A DNA stretch of 64,000 nucleotides from Pseudoalteromonas sp. GCY (lineage in GTDB: Bacteria; Pseudomonadota; Gammaproteobacteria; Enterobacterales; Alteromonadaceae), in NCBI RefSeq assembly GCF_016695175.1, contig NZ_CP068022.1:792001-856000 (forward strand), in the 5' to 3' direction. Position numbers and translations under genes: made by a program. The notes below the pieces were generated by a model. The model was not told where the DNA came from. It worked only from the letters and a program-made list of their open reading frames with translations, and did not search any database. Positions 35,724 through 42,446 of this stretch are shown here, in pieces; the stretch's first letter is position 1, and the number at the start of each line of letters is the position of its first letter.

Positions 35724-36602
35724 CTATTTTGGTGCTGACTCAAGATACCCAACTTGTAGCGGAGCATTTCTTCGAGCTATAAACCCGATATAAAGTACCG
35801 CGACACACAGCAACATAGGCACTGATTTTAAGTAAGCAAAATAGTCATAAAAGAAGGTTACTTCCCAGAACACCTTTGCGGTTTCTTCGTTTATACCCAT
35901 TCTATCTAGGTTACGGAGAAAGTTTTCCATCAATGCCAGAAAGTCTACGAAAGCTAAAATAATTGCTAGGAAATATAATGGCCCTTCAGCATAGTTTTTC
36001 TCAAAGACAGAAGCCGACTTTCCCCGAGTTAAAATAATAGCTATCTCGATACGATGCTTGAGTAAAAAGAGCAACAGTAGGCTGAGAGAAAACTGAATTG
36101 AAAACGCAAATATATTTTCTATAAAGTAGCTTTCCACAACAGGGAAGATCGCGATGCGAAGCATGTATATCGCTACAATTGCAAGAAAGTAAGGCACTGC
36201 AAAACATAACGTCAGTAGCTGACTATTTTTGTCTTTGTAAGAGTAAAAGAACAAAACTAACAATAAGATAAATAAAGTAGATTCAAAAATAATTACGCCA
36301 AAAGCCGATCCCAAGATAAGCGTAAGAATACTGCCTTTGTTCTTCATATTGTCTGGGTATAGTCGTGAGAGCGCTTCGGTATCATCTAAAATATCAGCGA
36401 GTTTGACTCTACATAAGTCAGCAAACTTCATTAACGTACCAAGCTTAAAAGAGCTAACACCATTGAGATAGTTGTCTAGCGTTCGCATGCCAATCCCGAG
36501 GTGCCGGCATATATCTTCTCGTGACATCCCGCGTTTATACTTGAGGCCCTTTATCAATAGCCCTATGCGCTGGCTTACTTCGTACTCTTCTGGCGTTTGC
36601 AT
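35724..36602 (-). CDS. XRE-type HTH protein with multi-pass membrane domain (array copy 1)
   Basis: 292 residues: an XRE-like HTH (residues ~8-70; SREDICRHLGIGMRTLDNYL) and a C-terminal membrane domain with about five or six helices, ending in a conserved block VFEKNYAEGPLYFLA, LMENFLRNLDRMGINEETAK, FWEVTFFYDYFAYLK. It is almost identical in its HTH part to the gene at 36649 and lies 46 bp downstream of it. A DNA-binding domain fixed to a polytopic membrane domain suggests a membrane-embedded transcription regulator sensing an envelope or peptide signal; this is inference. I recognise no named family for the membrane part. Confidence 0.85.
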   Translation of the reverse strand: MQTPEEYEVSQRIGLLIKGLKYKRGMSREDICRHLGIGMRTLDNYLNGVSSFKLGTLMKFADLCRVKLADILDDTEALSRLYPDNMKNKGSILTLILGSAFGVIIFESTLFILLLVLFFYSYKDKNSQLLTLCFAVPYFLAIVAIYMLRIAIFPVVESYFIENIFAFSIQFSLSLLLLFLLKHRIEIAIILTRGKSASVFEKNYAEGPLYFLAIILAFVDFLALMENFLRNLDRMGINEETAKVFWEVTFFYDYFAYLKSVPMLLCVAVLYIGFIARRNAPLQVGYLESAPK

Positions 36603-36648: not shown

Positions 36649-37512
36649 CTACGCACTTTGGGGCTGCTGCGTATTTCTTTTCCGTGCGAGTATTCCTGCA
36701 TAGAGGAGTACTAAACTGAGTAAGATCGGCGGGGCTTTAATGTATTCGTAATAATCATAAAAGAAAGTTAATTCCCAGAATGTTTTAGCGAAATCTTCAT
36801 CCATACCGATATGCTCTAAGTTGCGAATAAAATTTTCCATCAATGCGCAAAAATCAATGAGCGCTATCATCATTGCTAGGAAGCACAGAGGTGCCTCTAT
36901 AGGGTTTTTCTCGAAGACATCTTCAGACTTGCCTCGCGTGATAAATACAGCAAATTTCATTCTATATTTAAGTAAAATGAATAAAAGTAAGCTTAAAGAC
37001 AAGTTAGTTGAGAAAGCATAAATATTTTGATAGAAGACATTAGTAACCACGGGAAAAAGAACAAAATGCAGCCAGTAGTTAGCTACATTCGTTAATATAT
37101 AAACAGTGACAAAAATTGCGACCATGCATTGACTGTTTTTGTCCTTATATGAATAGCAAAGCAGCCCAATTAATAAAAGCAAGAAAACCGACTCGAACAG
37201 CATAGCGGTTGTACCTAAGCCAAAAAGCAATGTAAGAATACTGCCTTTGTCCTTCATATTGTCTGGATATAGTCGCGAGAGCGCTTCAGTATCATCTAAA
37301 ATATCGGCAAGCTTGACTCTGCAGAGGTCGGCAAACTTCATTAACGTACCAAGCTTGAAGGAGCTAACGCCATTAAGGTAGTTGTCTAGCGTTCGCATGC
37401 CAATCCCGAGGTGGCGGCATATATCTTCTCGTGACATCCCGCGTTTATGCTTTAGACCTTTTATTAGCAGTCCTATACGCTGGCTTACTTCGTACTCTTC
37501 TGGCGTTTGCAT
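36649..37512 (-). CDS. XRE-type HTH protein with multi-pass membrane domain (array copy 2)
   Basis: 287 residues from the ATG at 37512, chosen because all array copies start MQTPEEYEVSQRIG; an upstream start at 37536 would add eight residues. HTH residues ~8-70, then helices, then VFEKNPIEAPLCFLA, CALMENFIRNLEHIGMDEDFAK and FWELTFFYDYYEYIK. The HTH region is near-identical to copy 1 while the membrane part has diverged, so sensing may differ while DNA recognition is kept. The conserved promoter element lies at 37546-37584. Confidence 0.85.
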   Translation of the reverse strand: MQTPEEYEVSQRIGLLIKGLKHKRGMSREDICRHLGIGMRTLDNYLNGVSSFKLGTLMKFADLCRVKLADILDDTEALSRLYPDNMKDKGSILTLLFGLGTTAMLFESVFLLLLIGLLCYSYKDKNSQCMVAIFVTVYILTNVANYWLHFVLFPVVTNVFYQNIYAFSTNLSLSLLLFILLKYRMKFAVFITRGKSEDVFEKNPIEAPLCFLAMMIALIDFCALMENFIRNLEHIGMDEDFAKTFWELTFFYDYYEYIKAPPILLSLVLLYAGILARKRNTQQPQSA

Positions 37513-37545: not shown

Positions 37546-37584
37546 TTAACCCAAACATTACATTTTGTTTAATATAAAGACAAG
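37546..37584 (-). promoter_or_regulatory. Conserved 39-bp promoter/operator element, copy 1
   Basis: Read on the minus strand: -35 TTGTCT, 17-bp spacer, -10 TAATGT, with outer TTAAC/GTTTAA arms forming an imperfect palindrome over the -10. It ends 33 bp before the start codon of array copy 2. Near-identical elements occur at 39004 and 40153. Confidence 0.7.
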
Positions 37585-37762: not shown

Positions 37763-38383
37763 CTAGTTTTGAATTGGTTGTCTTTTGGTTCTTACGATTA
37801 AACCAATATAAAGAAGGAGCACACATAAAAATATTGGAACAGCCTTTAAATAAGCAAAGTAATCGAAGAAGAAGGTTACTTCCCAAAACATCTTTGCAGT
37901 TTCCTCATTAAGACCAAGTAGCTCTAAGTTACGAAGGAAGTTTTCCATTAATGCAGCGAAATCAATAAAGACCATTGTAAGAACCAGAAAATAAAGTGGC
38001 CCCTCCGCATAATTTTTTTCAAATACAGAAGCTGATTTTCCTTTGGTTAGTATCACAGCAATTGTCATTCTGTGCTTTAGTAGAAAAAGCATTAATAAAC
38101 TAAGTGTAAGCTGAATAGAAAATGCGTAAATATTTTGTATAAAATAGCTTTCAACAAGCTGAAAAACCACTGTTTTAAGTATAAATAACGCCACAGCTGA
38201 CACGGTAAATACAAATGTAAAACACAAAGTCAATAATTGACTATTTACATCATCCTTTGATAAAAGAACTAAGATAATTAATGCAATCGGAATCAAAAGT
38301 TCAAGGATCGTTACACTTACAAACGACACTGATACTGTAGCTACAATGCTAGTTAGCAAAGCTAAATTAAATAAACTTTTCAT
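37763..38383 (-). CDS. Membrane-only paralogue of the HTH-membrane array
   Basis: 206 residues with five or so helices and the full C-terminal signature of the array (VFEKNYAEGPLYFLVL, ALMENFLRNLELLGLNEETAK, FWEVTFFFDYFAYLKAVP) but no HTH. The N-terminus is a new start, MKSLFNLALLTS. The matching HTH is a separate gene at 38658-38969, and two small peptide ORFs lie between. The three downstream ORFs and the HTH gene are on one strand with tiny gaps, so they form an operon. Splitting shows that the two domains can work as separate proteins. Confidence 0.85.
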   Translation of the reverse strand: MKSLFNLALLTSIVATVSVSFVSVTILELLIPIALIILVLLSKDDVNSQLLTLCFTFVFTVSAVALFILKTVVFQLVESYFIQNIYAFSIQLTLSLLMLFLLKHRMTIAVILTKGKSASVFEKNYAEGPLYFLVLTMVFIDFAALMENFLRNLELLGLNEETAKMFWEVTFFFDYFAYLKAVPIFLCVLLLYIGLIVRTKRQPIQN

Positions 38384-38391
38384 AACAAACC

Positions 38392-38559
38392 CTACACTTT
38401 AGGCTTTTCTTTTGTTGCAGAAGCCTGTTCATTCTTTGGACCGTTTCCCGTGCTCATGCCCGACCCTCCATAAACTTTCTTACAGAGTGAACGTTCAAGT
38501 GTTGAGGTTTTGGGCTTCTTTCGACCCGTTGACAAAATCAGGCTAAATAAACTTTTCAA
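38392..38559 (-). CDS. Small peptide with double-glycine-like leader (peptide 2)
   Basis: 55 residues from a TTG at 38559 with a TGAGGTG site; a TTG at 38574 is an alternative. The sequence holds STLERSLCKKVYGGSGMSTG: GG preceded by V at -4 and L at -12, resembling double-glycine bacteriocin/pheromone leaders, then a hydrophilic tail rich in Gly, Lys and Thr. The start (MKSLFSLILSTG) is a duplicate of the start of the membrane gene 8 bp downstream. It shares LCK-x-VYGG-x-G with peptide 1. Confidence 0.6.
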   Translation of the reverse strand: MKSLFSLILSTGRKKPKTSTLERSLCKKVYGGSGMSTGNGPKNEQASATKEKPKV

Positions 38560-38575
38560 GATACACCTCAGCAAT

Positions 38576-38713
38576 TCAACTTTTCTGGTGGAGAGGCTTT
38601 ATGCTATCCCCTTTCCTCAAGCCCAAACCACCATAAACTTGTTTACACAATAAGTGACTAAGGGCTATTTTTATCGGCTTTTTCTGTGCAGCCTTCATTG
38701 TTCTTTTCCTCAT
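38576..38713 (-). CDS. Small peptide with double-glycine-like leader (peptide 1)
   Basis: A 45-residue ORF that begins inside the 3' end of the HTH gene in another frame, with an excellent GGAG site 6 nt before the ATG. Residues 17-31 read ALSHLLCKQVYGGLG, with L at -12, S at -11, V at -4 and GG at -2/-1, close to the LSxxELxxIxGG leader pattern. After GG comes a short basic tail of 16 residues. It overlaps the HTH gene by 56 bp, suggesting coupled translation. Confidence 0.6.
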   Translation of the reverse strand: MRKRTMKAAQKKPIKIALSHLLCKQVYGGLGLRKGDSIKPLHQKS

Positions 38714-38969
38714 GTTTTTCTCCATACAGGCCTGAGAGCTTATCTGTATCTTCTAAAATATCTGATAACTTTACTTTACAGATTTCAGCAAACCGAAGCA
38801 ATGTCCCAAGCTTAAAGGAACTAGAGCCATTTAAATAGTTATCAAGGGTCCTGTCACCCACACCTAAACGTCGGCTAACCTCTTCTCGGGTCATCCCTTT
38901 TTTGCGCTTTAGCCCCCGTATCAATCGGCCGATACGTTGGCTTACCTCGTATTCTTCTGGCGTCTGCAT
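38658..38969 (-). CDS. HTH-only paralogue of the array
   Basis: 103 residues from the ATG at 38969 (MQTPEEYEVSQRIGRLIRG), with the XRE-like HTH (TREEVSRRLGVGDRTLDNYL, SSFKLGTLLRFAEICKVKLSDIL) and a short hydrophilic tail instead of a membrane domain. The conserved promoter element is at 39004-39042. A soluble regulator in the same operon as two small peptides and the membrane-only paralogue suggests a split signalling unit. Confidence 0.82.
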   Translation of the reverse strand: MQTPEEYEVSQRIGRLIRGLKRKKGMTREEVSRRLGVGDRTLDNYLNGSSSFKLGTLLRFAEICKVKLSDILEDTDKLSGLYGEKHEEKNNEGCTEKADKNSP

Positions 38970-39003
38970 CGCCCCACCATATCTCTCAATCACCCCAACC
39001 AAG

Positions 39004-39042
39004 TTAACTAAAAGTTTACATCCAGTTAAATATAAAGACAAG
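39004..39042 (-). promoter_or_regulatory. Conserved 39-bp promoter/operator element, copy 2
   Basis: Minus-strand reading gives TTGTCT, a 17-bp spacer and TAAACT, with TTAAC/GTTAA arms. AAATATAAAGACAAG on the plus strand is identical to copy 3. It lies 35 bp upstream of the HTH-only gene start. Confidence 0.7.
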
Positions 39043-39241
39043 TAGATGACAGTACTATTTTTAGGTGCACACTCGCAAAACAACCCAAAACAGAAACAAA
39101 CTTACCATTATATTTGAATTTTTGGTATCAATTGATTTAAGCAACCCTTACTACACCCGCTTATTTGTTCTTTTGCAGATCATAAAAAATCAATAATTAA
39201 AAACACACAGAGTTCTCTATTTTTATGGGAATATCTTCACA

Positions 39242-40117
39242 TTATTGTATGGGTGCAGCATTTGCTCTATTTAAAGCCTGCTTACGGCGCGCAGTTATTC
39301 CTGCGTATAACACAAACATGCAGAGCAGATAAGGCACGGCCTTAATATAAGCAAAGTAATCAAACATAAAGGTCAGCTCCCAAAATGGTTTGGCAACTTC
39401 TTCATCTATACCTAAATGCTCTAGGTTACGGATAAAGTTTTCCATCAGTGCAGCAAAATCAATCAAAGCTAACGTACATGCGAGTGCATAAAGCGGCGCG
39501 TCTACTTGGTTCTTCTCAAAAATGCTGGCTGAATTCCCTTTGGTAAAACACGCACCTAAAAACATTCTGTATTTGATCATTAGCGCAAGCAGTAAACTCA
39601 GTAAAAGTTGAGTTGCAAAAGCATAGATATTTTCAATGTAATAGCTTTCAATAGCTGGGATCAATACAAATGTAAGCCAGTAAACAACGGCGATTTCCAA
39701 CGAAAAAGCAAATATAAAAATTGCAACAATGCTTTGACTATTCTTGTCATTACGCGCATAAAAAAATAACAAGATCAGTAGTCCAATGAAGATAACTTCA
39801 AATACTAAAACGCTGACAATAGAACTCATAAATAGTAAAAAGATATTGCCTTTGTCTTTAATATTCTCAGGATACAAGCGCTTCAGCGCCTCGGTATCAT
39901 CCAAAATATCAGCCAGCTTTACCTTGCAAAGATCCGCAAACTTTAACAATGTCCCAAGTTTAAATGAGCTCACTCCGTTTAAGTAATTGTCTAACGTGCG
40001 CGAGCCTATACCTAAACGTTTACAGACATCTTCTCGGGTCATACCTCTGGTACGCTTTAACCCAAGTATTAACCTACCTATCCGCTGGCTTACCTCATAT
40101 TCCTCTGGCGTTTGCAT
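39242..40117 (-). CDS. XRE-type HTH protein with multi-pass membrane domain (array copy 4)
   Basis: 291 residues with the same architecture as copies 1 and 2: HTH (TREDVCKRLGIGSRTLDNYL), five or six helices, and the C-terminal block IFEKNQVDAPLYALA, ALMENFIRNLEHLGIDEEVAK, FWELTFMFDYFAYIK. It is the most upstream gene of the array and has its own promoter element at 40153. Function as for the other copies: probably a membrane-tethered transcription regulator. Confidence 0.85.
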   Translation of the reverse strand: MQTPEEYEVSQRIGRLILGLKRTRGMTREDVCKRLGIGSRTLDNYLNGVSSFKLGTLLKFADLCKVKLADILDDTEALKRLYPENIKDKGNIFLLFMSSIVSVLVFEVIFIGLLILLFFYARNDKNSQSIVAIFIFAFSLEIAVVYWLTFVLIPAIESYYIENIYAFATQLLLSLLLALMIKYRMFLGACFTKGNSASIFEKNQVDAPLYALACTLALIDFAALMENFIRNLEHLGIDEEVAKPFWELTFMFDYFAYIKAVPYLLCMFVLYAGITARRKQALNRANAAPIQ

Positions 40118-40152: not shown

Positions 40153-40191
40153 TTAACCCAAACATTACATTTAGTTAAATATAAAGACAAG
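40153..40191 (-). promoter_or_regulatory. Conserved 39-bp promoter/operator element, copy 3
   Basis: Minus-strand reading gives TTGTCT, 17 bp, TAATGT; the left part (TTAACCCAAACATTACAT) is identical to copy 1 and the right part to copy 2. It ends 35 bp before the start of array copy 4. Confidence 0.7.
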
Positions 40192-40325: not shown

Positions 40326-40391
40326 ATAGCCGTGAGCATTTATAAAACCAGATAAGCTGTGGGTAATCCGCAGCCGGCGTTTTAAAAAGAT

Positions 40392-41046
40392 CGCTGGGTA
40401 AACCAGCTCCTACATGGTGGTGTGGAGTCAGTATAAGGTGCTTTGTGTAGCGGTTGGTGCCTTATAAAGATCGCTGGGTGAACCAGCTCCTACGAGGGGG
40501 TGTGGAGTCAGTATAAGGTGCTTTGTGCAGCGGTTGGTGCCTTATAAAGATCGCTGAGTGAACCAGCTCCTAGAAGGAGGTGTGAAGTCAGTATAAGGTG
40601 CTTTGGCAGCGGTTGGTGCCTTATAAATATCGCTGGGTGAACCAGCTCCTACGAGGAGGTGTGGAGTCCGTATAAGGTGCTTTGTGTAGCGGTTGGTGCC
40701 TTATAAAGATCGCTGGGTGAACCAGCTCCTACGAGGAAGTGTGGAGTCAGTATAAAGTGCTTTGTGCAGCGGTTGGTGCCTTATAAAGATCGCTGGGTAA
40801 ACCAGCTCCTAGAAGGAGGTGTGAAGTCAGTATAAGGTGCTTTGGCAGCGGTTGGTGCCTTATAAATATCGCTGGGTGAACCAGCTCCTACGAGGAGGTG
40901 TGGAGTCCGTATAAGGTGCTTTGTGTAGCGGTTGGTGCCTTATAAAGATCGCTGGGTGAACCAGCTCCTACGCGGGGGTGTGGAGTCAGTATAAGGTGCT
41001 TTGTGCAGCGGTTGGTGCTTGGTAAAGATCGCTGGGTGAACCAGCT
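40392..41046. repeat. Tandem array of ~80-bp units each carrying a REP-like hairpin
   Basis: Nine occurrences of CGCTGGGTGAACCAGCTCC-like sequence start at 40392, 40472, 40552, 40631, 40711, 40791, 40870, 40950 and 41030, spaced 80,80,79,80,80,79,80,80. Three unit types (A with GTGTAGC, B with GTGCAGC, C 79 bp with GGCAGC) alternate, giving a 239-bp higher-order repeat. On the minus strand each unit shows GTAGGAGCTGG...CCAGC, the tetranucleotide-plus-hairpin form of REP sequences. The array is interrupted by an IS1111-group element and resumes briefly at 42447. Confidence 0.92.
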
Positions 41047-41061
41047 AATATGGACTCCTCC

Positions 41062-41333: not shown

Positions 41334-42365
41334 CTATGCCGCTAAGATTTTTGGCTCGTATGTTGAACCGTTTTTAAGTAAGGCATAGGCAGTTCTAACC
41401 GTTTTGTTGGCCAATGCAATGGCAACACATTTCACGCTTTTCTTGGCGAGTAGGTTTTTTATCCAGCGTTCTTTCTCTGTGGTCGCTTCTTTATGTTTTA
41501 GCCTGCTGACTACCGTTCTTGCACCGAGAAACAGGTTTTTCCTTAATGTATTGCCTCGTCTTTTGGGGATATGCCCTATCTTGGCTTTTCCGCCTGATGA
41601 GTGCTGGGTCGGTGTAACACCTGCACATGCTGCAGCCCCTCTGGCATCACTAAATTGTGAAGTATTGCCTAAAAAGGATAGCAGCTCTATCGCGGTAATT
41701 GGGCCAACGCCTTCTAATGCCATTAAACGCTGGCAACTGTCATTTTGCTTGGTTATCGCTTCAACTTGTTTATGTAGCTGTGCTTTAGCGTTGCTTTGTG
41801 TTTTATATAGGTCATAACTCACCGCGAGTGCTTGTTTTAATGCGATAGGGAGCGCATTTTCAGCATCTTCTAAAATATCTGGAACCGCTTGTGTTAACGC
41901 TGCATCGCCTTGATTAATGACAACACCAAACTCTAATAGCAATCCACGTATTTGATTTGAAAGCTGGGTCTTTTGTTTATCTACTAAGGTTCTCGCTTGG
42001 CTCAGTGACTGCAACGTTTGCTCTTCAACTGCCATGATTTTACAGGGCTTCACGTTGTATGCTTGGCTTGCACTGGCAATGGCGAGGACATCGTTTGCAT
42101 CGGTTTTTTGGCCTTGCCTAAACGCTTTTACGAACTTAGGGGGAAGCAACATGACGTCGTGCCCCAGTGACAGTGCTTTGCGAGCAATATGCTGGGCGCT
42201 ACCACAAGCTTCCATCACGACCTTTGAACCCTCGGTTTTTGCTAGCAACTCAAGCATAGGTTCGCGTTTCATTGGCTTATTAAACTTGAGTTTATTGCCT
42301 TTCAGCTGTGCCACCTGGAAAATGTTTTTTGCCAAGTCGATAGCAATTAAATTAGACTGTGTCAT
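41334..42365 (-). CDS. IS110-family (IS1111 group) transposase
   Basis: 343 residues from the ATG at 42365, chosen because MTQSNLIAIDLAKNIFQ is the family N-terminus; a longer frame runs to 42446. The RuvC-like DEDD catalytic set appears as Asp10 (AIDLAKN), Glu in VVMEACG and the Asp pair in KTDANDVLAI. The C-terminal transposase_20 part reads LMALEGVGPITAIELLSFLG and AAACAGVTPTQHSSGGKAKIG, with the conserved Ser. Apparently intact. Confidence 0.93.
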   Translation of the reverse strand: MTQSNLIAIDLAKNIFQVAQLKGNKLKFNKPMKREPMLELLAKTEGSKVVMEACGSAQHIARKALSLGHDVMLLPPKFVKAFRQGQKTDANDVLAIASASQAYNVKPCKIMAVEEQTLQSLSQARTLVDKQKTQLSNQIRGLLLEFGVVINQGDAALTQAVPDILEDAENALPIALKQALAVSYDLYKTQSNAKAQLHKQVEAITKQNDSCQRLMALEGVGPITAIELLSFLGNTSQFSDARGAAACAGVTPTQHSSGGKAKIGHIPKRRGNTLRKNLFLGARTVVSRLKHKEATTEKERWIKNLLAKKSVKCVAIALANKTVRTAYALLKNGSTYEPKILAA

Positions 42366-42446
42366 GTATGGACTCCTTATTTGGTAAAAGTGTTTTGCAA
42401 TATCTTTATACCGTACTCTCCCGATAAGGGGGAGGAGTCCATACAT

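Follow-up and report, generated by a model that had tools for sequence, protein, structure and literature searches.

Peptide pheromones with double-glycine leaders are chiefly a Gram-positive theme; in streptococci, ComC and BlpC are paired with the histidine kinases ComD and BlpH. In the agr groups, a variable block of peptide and membrane sensor lies within constant flanks and gives rise to communication groups. Double-glycine leaders and C39 exporters are also typical of class II bacteriocins and microcins. Four papers were used for comparison, covering the streptococcal ComC/BlpC systems (PMC7595303, a review), the ComQXPA pherotypes of Bacillus (PMC4408185), class II microcins and bacteriocins (PMC9746304) and the small secreted proteins of biofilm control in Synechococcus (PMC4997328). 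Among the literature matches listed, no paper described the cassette reported below or its membrane protein in its title or the start of its abstract, and in the available part of PMC6275029, on quorum sensing in Pseudoalteromonas, the word 'peptide' occurs 0 times.

The locus analysed here lies in a 64,000-nt stretch of Pseudoalteromonas sp. GCY DNA, the whole of which is called the window and which belongs to the smaller of the two contigs that make up the 5.47 Mb genome. The genes are on the minus strand, in the order fused HTH-membrane gene (39242..40117), HTH-only gene (38658..38969), small ORF A (38576..38698), small ORF B (38392..38559), membrane-only gene (37763..38383) and two more fused genes (36649..37512 and 35724..36602). 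The original prediction had placed two small ORFs between an HTH-only and a membrane-only gene whose paralogues are fused; both ORFs could be read on the minus strand, and three single-chain fused paralogues lie alongside. The HTH-only protein (103 aa, XRE/Cro-C1 type) has no membrane part, and the frame that contains it (38658-39083) matched Pfam HTH_31 (1.9e-9) and HTH_3 (3e-9). The membrane-only protein has 206 aa and no HTH. Its sequence is 50% identical to the membrane part of the fused protein at 39242..40117 (291 aa, with a Pfam HTH match), 49% to that at 36649..37512, which starts with MQTPEE in a longer frame reaching 37536, and 61% to that at 35724..36602 (292 aa).

With the starts judged likely, on which coordinates and lengths rest, ORF A encodes 40 aa (including LSHLLCKQVYGGLG) and ORF B 55 aa (including LERSLCKKVYGGSG). 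The leader of A ends in LCKQVYGG and is followed by a 16-residue tail, LGLRKGDSIKPLHQKS; that of B ends in LCKKVYGG and is followed by a 23-residue tail, SGMSTGNGPKNEQASATKEKPKV. The common motif LCK[KQ]VYGG[SL]G was thus present as claimed, and the proposed fit to a double-glycine leader held, with L at −12, S at −11 in A and V at −4 in A and B. In a whole-genome search, a degenerate DNA pattern for this motif matched without mismatch only ORFs A and B. The start of A overlaps the end of the HTH gene by 41 nt, and an identical ORF is found in the related locus L034. ORF B starts with TTG at 38559, where peptide 4 of a second related locus, L024, has ATG at the matching position; relatives of B are present in both L034 and L024.

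Above the cut-offs, Pfam returned HTH families only, all in the HTH parts, and none in the membrane protein, ORF A or ORF B; no NCBIfam model exceeded its cut-off for any part of the cassette. The AlphaFold2 model of the membrane protein (pLDDT 85.4, pTM 0.80) has six long helices, and a PDB structure search with it gave no confident match. Because the HTH comes first in the fused form, the N-terminus of the membrane protein should be cytoplasmic.

The likeness to ComC/BlpC consists of a short GG-leader peptide, a C39 ABC exporter, a membrane partner and strain-specific pairs. Here, however, there is no kinase domain in the membrane protein, whose partner is an XRE HTH, separate or fused; the host is Gram-negative, the exporter is encoded outside the cluster and there are multi-unit precursors. 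A ComCDE/Blp-type assignment was rejected, as Pfam showed no membrane histidine kinase or LytTR-type regulator above cut-off in the HTH, fused and membrane proteins; so was one to the RRNPP receptors (Rgg, PlcR, ComR), as no TPR family was found in the HTH or fused proteins. As in the ComQXPA pherotypes (PMC4408185), constant sequence flanks a variable block of peptide and membrane sensor, which there leads to communication groups. Unlike ComQXPA and agr, the locus has no ComQ/AgrB modifying enzyme or two-component kinase that could be seen, and the peptides look linear and unmodified by sequence. With class II microcins and bacteriocins (PMC9746304) it shares the GG leader, the C39 exporter and a small membrane partner beside the peptide, whereas the tails are shorter and hydrophilic and paralogues carry HTH and membrane domain as a natural fusion. 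The Synechococcus proteins are likewise small, carry a GG motif and have a role in behaviour rather than killing, but the available part of PMC4997328 mentions no HTH/membrane cassette.

Relatives of the membrane protein were found elsewhere in the same genome, at 729 kb on contig 1 and at 443 kb and 3,628 kb on contig 2, and at each of these three loci an HTH-only gene and GG-leader ORFs precede the membrane gene. The precursors there are a 177-aa protein with three units, a 262-aa protein with seven units and two small ORFs. The three-unit precursor (L021) matched Pfam ComC over 15 residues at 20.5 bits, against a cut-off of 20.4, and fell below cut-off for the NCBIfam EntF induction-factor and bacteriocin-leader models; the match of the repeat precursors to lant_leader_L1a was also below cut-off. 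Weaker members occur at 1,028 kb and 686 kb on contig 1 and at 3,547 kb on contig 2, the last with a peptide and no HTH seen. Beyond this genome, the window locus was found in four named genomes, where the membrane protein is 63-68% identical and one to four small ORFs are present. The membrane family is present in 45 of 108 genus genomes. In a sample of the order, its profile matched 3 of 295 genomes, namely the present genome, a second from its genus and a weak match taken as spurious. Of 53 protein matches (8000 candidates scored), every one bearing a name was from Pseudoalteromonas, and relatives without an HTH are named hypothetical or uncharacterized protein. The small ORFs, whose conservation in other genomes the original prediction had made its own test, are therefore kept as a class with very variable tails, not as fixed sequences, and the predicted arrangement is confirmed as part of a larger recurring cassette family.

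Seventy distinct membrane-only ORFs were taken, mainly from the better-scoring matches, and for 62 of them an HTH gene precedes the ORF in the same orientation. A strict GG-leader ORF, that is, a C39-type leader within an ORF of at least 35 codons, was found in 43 of these 62 HTH-to-membrane gaps, compared with 0/62 on the antisense strand and a mean of 0.68 (at most 3/62) in 100 dinucleotide shuffles of the gaps. Control stretches gave 1/60 upstream and 12/61 downstream, the latter raised because a related Cys-rich peptide lies there at 7 loci. When membrane proteins were clustered, 19 of 25 clusters at 60% identity and 6 of 8 at 40% contained a strict GG ORF. Twelve of the 19 gaps that lacked one hold GA, GS, AG or similar variants, and in the other 7 of the 62 gaps (L043-L046, L049, L089, L096) no recognisable peptide was present.

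Several variant loci were observed. L043, L044, L045, L046 and L049 form a subfamily with near-identical 77-78-aa HTH proteins, similar membrane proteins and no recognisable gap peptide; they could be solo sensors or could have lost the peptide. The Cys-rich GG-leader peptide gene (74 aa, L023:2187-2411) begins 44-70 nt past the membrane gene and occurs in at least 7 of the 62 loci (L023, L065, L070, L074, where it is shortened, L081, L082 and L083); it could encode an effector under cassette control. In L134:742-1674 and L110:1269-2540, the peptide follows the membrane gene, and the tails have SPDLPxR in common (MKTLSEHLLKQIKGGTHSRSPDLPAR and IAKKITGAAGGGVTSPDLPER). In L131:1472-2597, a GG-leader peptide is followed by two other small membrane proteins, with no HTH among same-strand ORFs of at least 75 aa.

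To derive the leader and tail motif, 112 distinct GG/GA/GS sites were considered, and the 72 that also carry a hydrophobic −12 were used for the logo. For these the only demands were wide hydrophobic classes at −12 and −4 and a G before G, A or S, with nothing demanded in the tail; a few of the 72 arose by chance, and loci that are related enter separately. The leader pattern of the C39-exported double-glycine class (L at −12, a hydrophobic residue at −4, GG, GA or GS at −2 and −1) was found at 72 of the 112 sites and in A and B. Leader preferences were L at −12 (81%), S/N/T at −11 (71%) and V/I at −4 (95%), and the undemanded tail positions showed S/T at +1 (77%), D at +8 (52%), P at +9 (72%) and R/K at +10 (67%), so that tails tend to S-G-G-x4-D-P-R/K. 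The shortest tails have 11 residues (SGMDQYDDPRG). Over 18 chosen tails the mean GRAVY was −1.32, though microcins are diverse, and 1 Cys was present in total; the tails of A and B have none. In some cassette peptides, AG, AA or AR stands where GG is expected.

A peptide profile was built from 25 units, 8 of them from the present genome. In this genome it matched 13 places, all 13 in cassettes; the cassette at 1,028 kb, which is outside the model, is among them. ORF A scored E 5.2e-8, being itself a member of the model. There were zero matches in the other 196 genomes of the order. Within the genus, 22 of 108 genomes matched, all 22 among the 45 with the membrane family, leaving 23 of the 45 missed. 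Of the 88 genus matches, 78 lie within 1.5 kb of a listed membrane match. The other 10 fall in eight stretches, of which L134 and L136 hold an HTH gene; the match in L131 is the one followed by two other membrane proteins, and L129, L130, L132, L133 and L135 show no such partner among same-strand ORFs of at least 75 aa.

The cassette is polymorphic between strains. Across nine strains with the window locus, the HTH-only protein is 0.975 identical (pS 0.126) and the membrane protein 0.665 (pS 0.79), with 0.52 in the N-terminal half and 0.79 in the C-terminal half. Identity in the first downstream fused gene is 0.997 over the HTH part and 0.668 over the membrane part. Five single-peptide strains were compared in 60-nt windows. 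Nucleotide identity was 0.92-1.00 across the HTH gene and the leader, dropped to 0.46-0.57 in the peptide tail, from just past the LCK codons, and ran at 0.46-0.76 along the membrane gene. For the next fused gene it was back at ~0.96 over the promoter and HTH part, before dropping again in the membrane part. As the break begins at the GG site and extends through the membrane gene, mature peptide and membrane protein behave as one replaceable block.

Peptide and membrane protein also covary. In Mantel tests over 11 strains, the membrane-adjacent peptide correlated with the membrane N-terminal half at r 0.71 (p 0.0002), or 0.48 (p 0.001) without the near-duplicate L034, with the C-terminal half at r 0.57 and with the HTH at 0.39 (p 0.017); HTH against the membrane N-terminal half gave a weak 0.32 (p 0.006). 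Linkage could give part of the covariation between peptide and membrane protein, though the HTH gene is about equally close. In L024, four peptides stand ahead of one membrane gene, together with a duplicated 77-nt segment of HTH tail and leader (86%) and a duplicated 80-nt segment (70%); in the window itself no repeat of this type was found. Peptides 3 and 4 of L024 and ORF B of the window start like the membrane gene, with MKSLF, MKSLL or LKSLF, as if cassettes had been inserted at the start of the membrane gene. L024 has a short stretch that by eye resembles a truncated membrane-gene start. Split and fused membrane genes have no close alleles in common, the best identity being about 72%.

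The original prediction was right that no C39 transporter is adjacent. The genome's one C39 match is on the other contig, so an exporter gene in the cassette cluster was rejected. This match is an ABC exporter beside genes that we take, by eye and from recall, to be HlyD-, LanC- and LanB-like, and beside a separate GG-leader precursor (L059:4441-12676). The precursor has 66 aa and a leader ending in PQIAGG, and by eye the cluster resembles one of class I lanthipeptides; it may supply the exporter's main cargo. A class I lanthipeptide assignment of the cassette peptides was rejected, as the tails of A and B lack Cys, the LanB/LanC-like genes are at the distant C39 cluster and lant_leader_L1a stayed below cut-off. 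Within the genus, C39 matches co-occur with the membrane family: strong ones (E ≤ 1e-33, a threshold picked after viewing the data) were present in 45/45 genus genomes with the family and in 9/63 without it, and at E ≤ 0.001 in 45/45 and 36/63, both as raw genome counts that ignore kinship.

In window-type strains, a promoter/operator-like block, CTTGTCTTTATATTTAAC...ATGTAA...GGTTAA, is conserved ahead of the HTH gene and of two fused genes. Its copies in the window lie on the minus strand at 39004..39042, upstream of the HTH gene, at 40153..40191, upstream of the fused gene 39242-40117, and at 37546..37584, upstream of the fused gene 36649-37512; the fused gene 35724-36602 has no such block within 140 nt upstream. 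The genome pattern search found these 3 sites at up to 3 mismatches, all within the array, and 0 with the reversed control. Output beyond autoregulation is therefore not seen.

The anatomy of the cassette is firm, and its function is what we infer from it. With modest confidence, we read the cassette as a polymorphic system of exported peptide, membrane sensor and HTH, a strain-variable cassette for peptide communication; such a system would probably be a pheromone system. The small ORFs would be precursors, and the C39 peptidase ABC exporter, whose gene lies elsewhere in the genome, would remove their leaders behind the double glycine, releasing hydrophilic peptides of about 11-35 residues, most with S or T first. 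The cognate six-helix membrane protein would sense the released peptide and alter the activity of the HTH, the two forming a split pair that is one chain in the paralogues. The HTH may act on the operator common to genes of the array, so that the cassette would regulate its own production and that of the fused sensors. Export, cleavage, sensing, contact between HTH and membrane protein and the direction of regulation are all proposed from sequence. The original prediction, of a signalling or peptide/immunity module in which the membrane protein senses or exports the peptide, is strongly supported as to the HTH/GG-peptide/membrane module by recurrence, the leader and tail motif, strain covariation and C39 co-occurrence. 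Of the roles proposed for the membrane protein, export is the least likely, as Pfam finds no domain in it and a C39 exporter is present elsewhere.

The main and serious rival is that the GG peptides are narrow-spectrum, microcin-like bacteriocins, with the membrane protein as cognate immunity, the HTH regulating the pair and the fused genes as an immunity bank. Although we consider it doubtful, strain-variable toxin/immunity pairs would covary too, leaders and exporter are of the kind typical of class II bacteriocins and microcins, the L021 precursor weakly matches bacteriocin leader models and the Cys-rich peptide, shortened in one locus, follows the membrane gene. An HTH fused to an immunity protein would be odd, however, the tails are short and hydrophilic, and no close alleles are common to the fused and the split membrane genes. 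The stacked peptides of L024 persist without an adjacent membrane gene of their own, which is hard to reconcile with self-toxic peptides. Signalling is favoured because the paralogues join HTH and membrane domain in a single protein, the peptide tails are hydrophilic and peptides persist where they have no membrane gene of their own. The natural fusion, the ComC match of L021, the leader and tail residues, the identity break at the GG site, the peptide-membrane covariation, the constant HTH parts beside variable membrane parts in the first downstream fused genes and the gap, profile and C39 counts were counted for it. Against it were set the restriction of the operator-like block to three array sites, the want of a confident PDB match, the peptide-less gaps, the profile misses, possible linkage, the post hoc threshold and the neglect of kinship in the C39 association, and the lanthipeptide-like context of the exporter.

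Two further readings dispense with communication between cells. Peptides that stay inside the cell, of a regulatory or leader type, might bind either the HTH or the membrane protein and determine how far the membrane gene downstream is expressed; the overlap of ORF A with the HTH gene, the single-operon look of the four genes, the want of an adjacent C39 gene and the replacement of GG by AG, AA or AR in some members would all suit this. We regard it as improbable, since leader positions −12, −11, −4, −2 and −1 match the C39 substrate pattern, all 45 genus genomes with the membrane family have C39, and multi-unit precursors with GG ahead of each unit make most sense if cut. Very improbable, in our estimate, is a selfish or toxin-antitoxin-like locus in which cassette recombination left the small ORFs behind as relics. 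The stacked peptides with their duplicated leader segments, the apparent truncated membrane-gene start in L024 and hypervariability are compatible with it, but relics are not expected to retain motif or frame, and GG-leader ORFs recur in most clusters at 40% membrane identity with a common tail motif.

Should the signalling reading be true, the study of kin recognition and communication groups would gain a new setting, a Gram-negative genus that carries variable peptide/sensor cassettes in large number. Our judgement is evenly balanced on a wider proposal, a new Gram-negative class of polymorphic peptide signalling with one-component six-helix sensors and split or fused XRE HTH, exported double-glycine pheromones, multi-unit precursors that hold as many as seven signals and sensor arrays that vary around one common DNA-binding domain, diversified by swaps of peptide plus sensor at the cleavage site. 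The cassettes supply natural cognate and non-cognate pairs, so specificity is directly testable.

At 40390-41050 of the window, a unit of roughly 100 nt (containing gatcgctgggtgaaccagctcctac) was seen by eye in about six tandem copies, beside a transposase-like ORF at 41334-42446.
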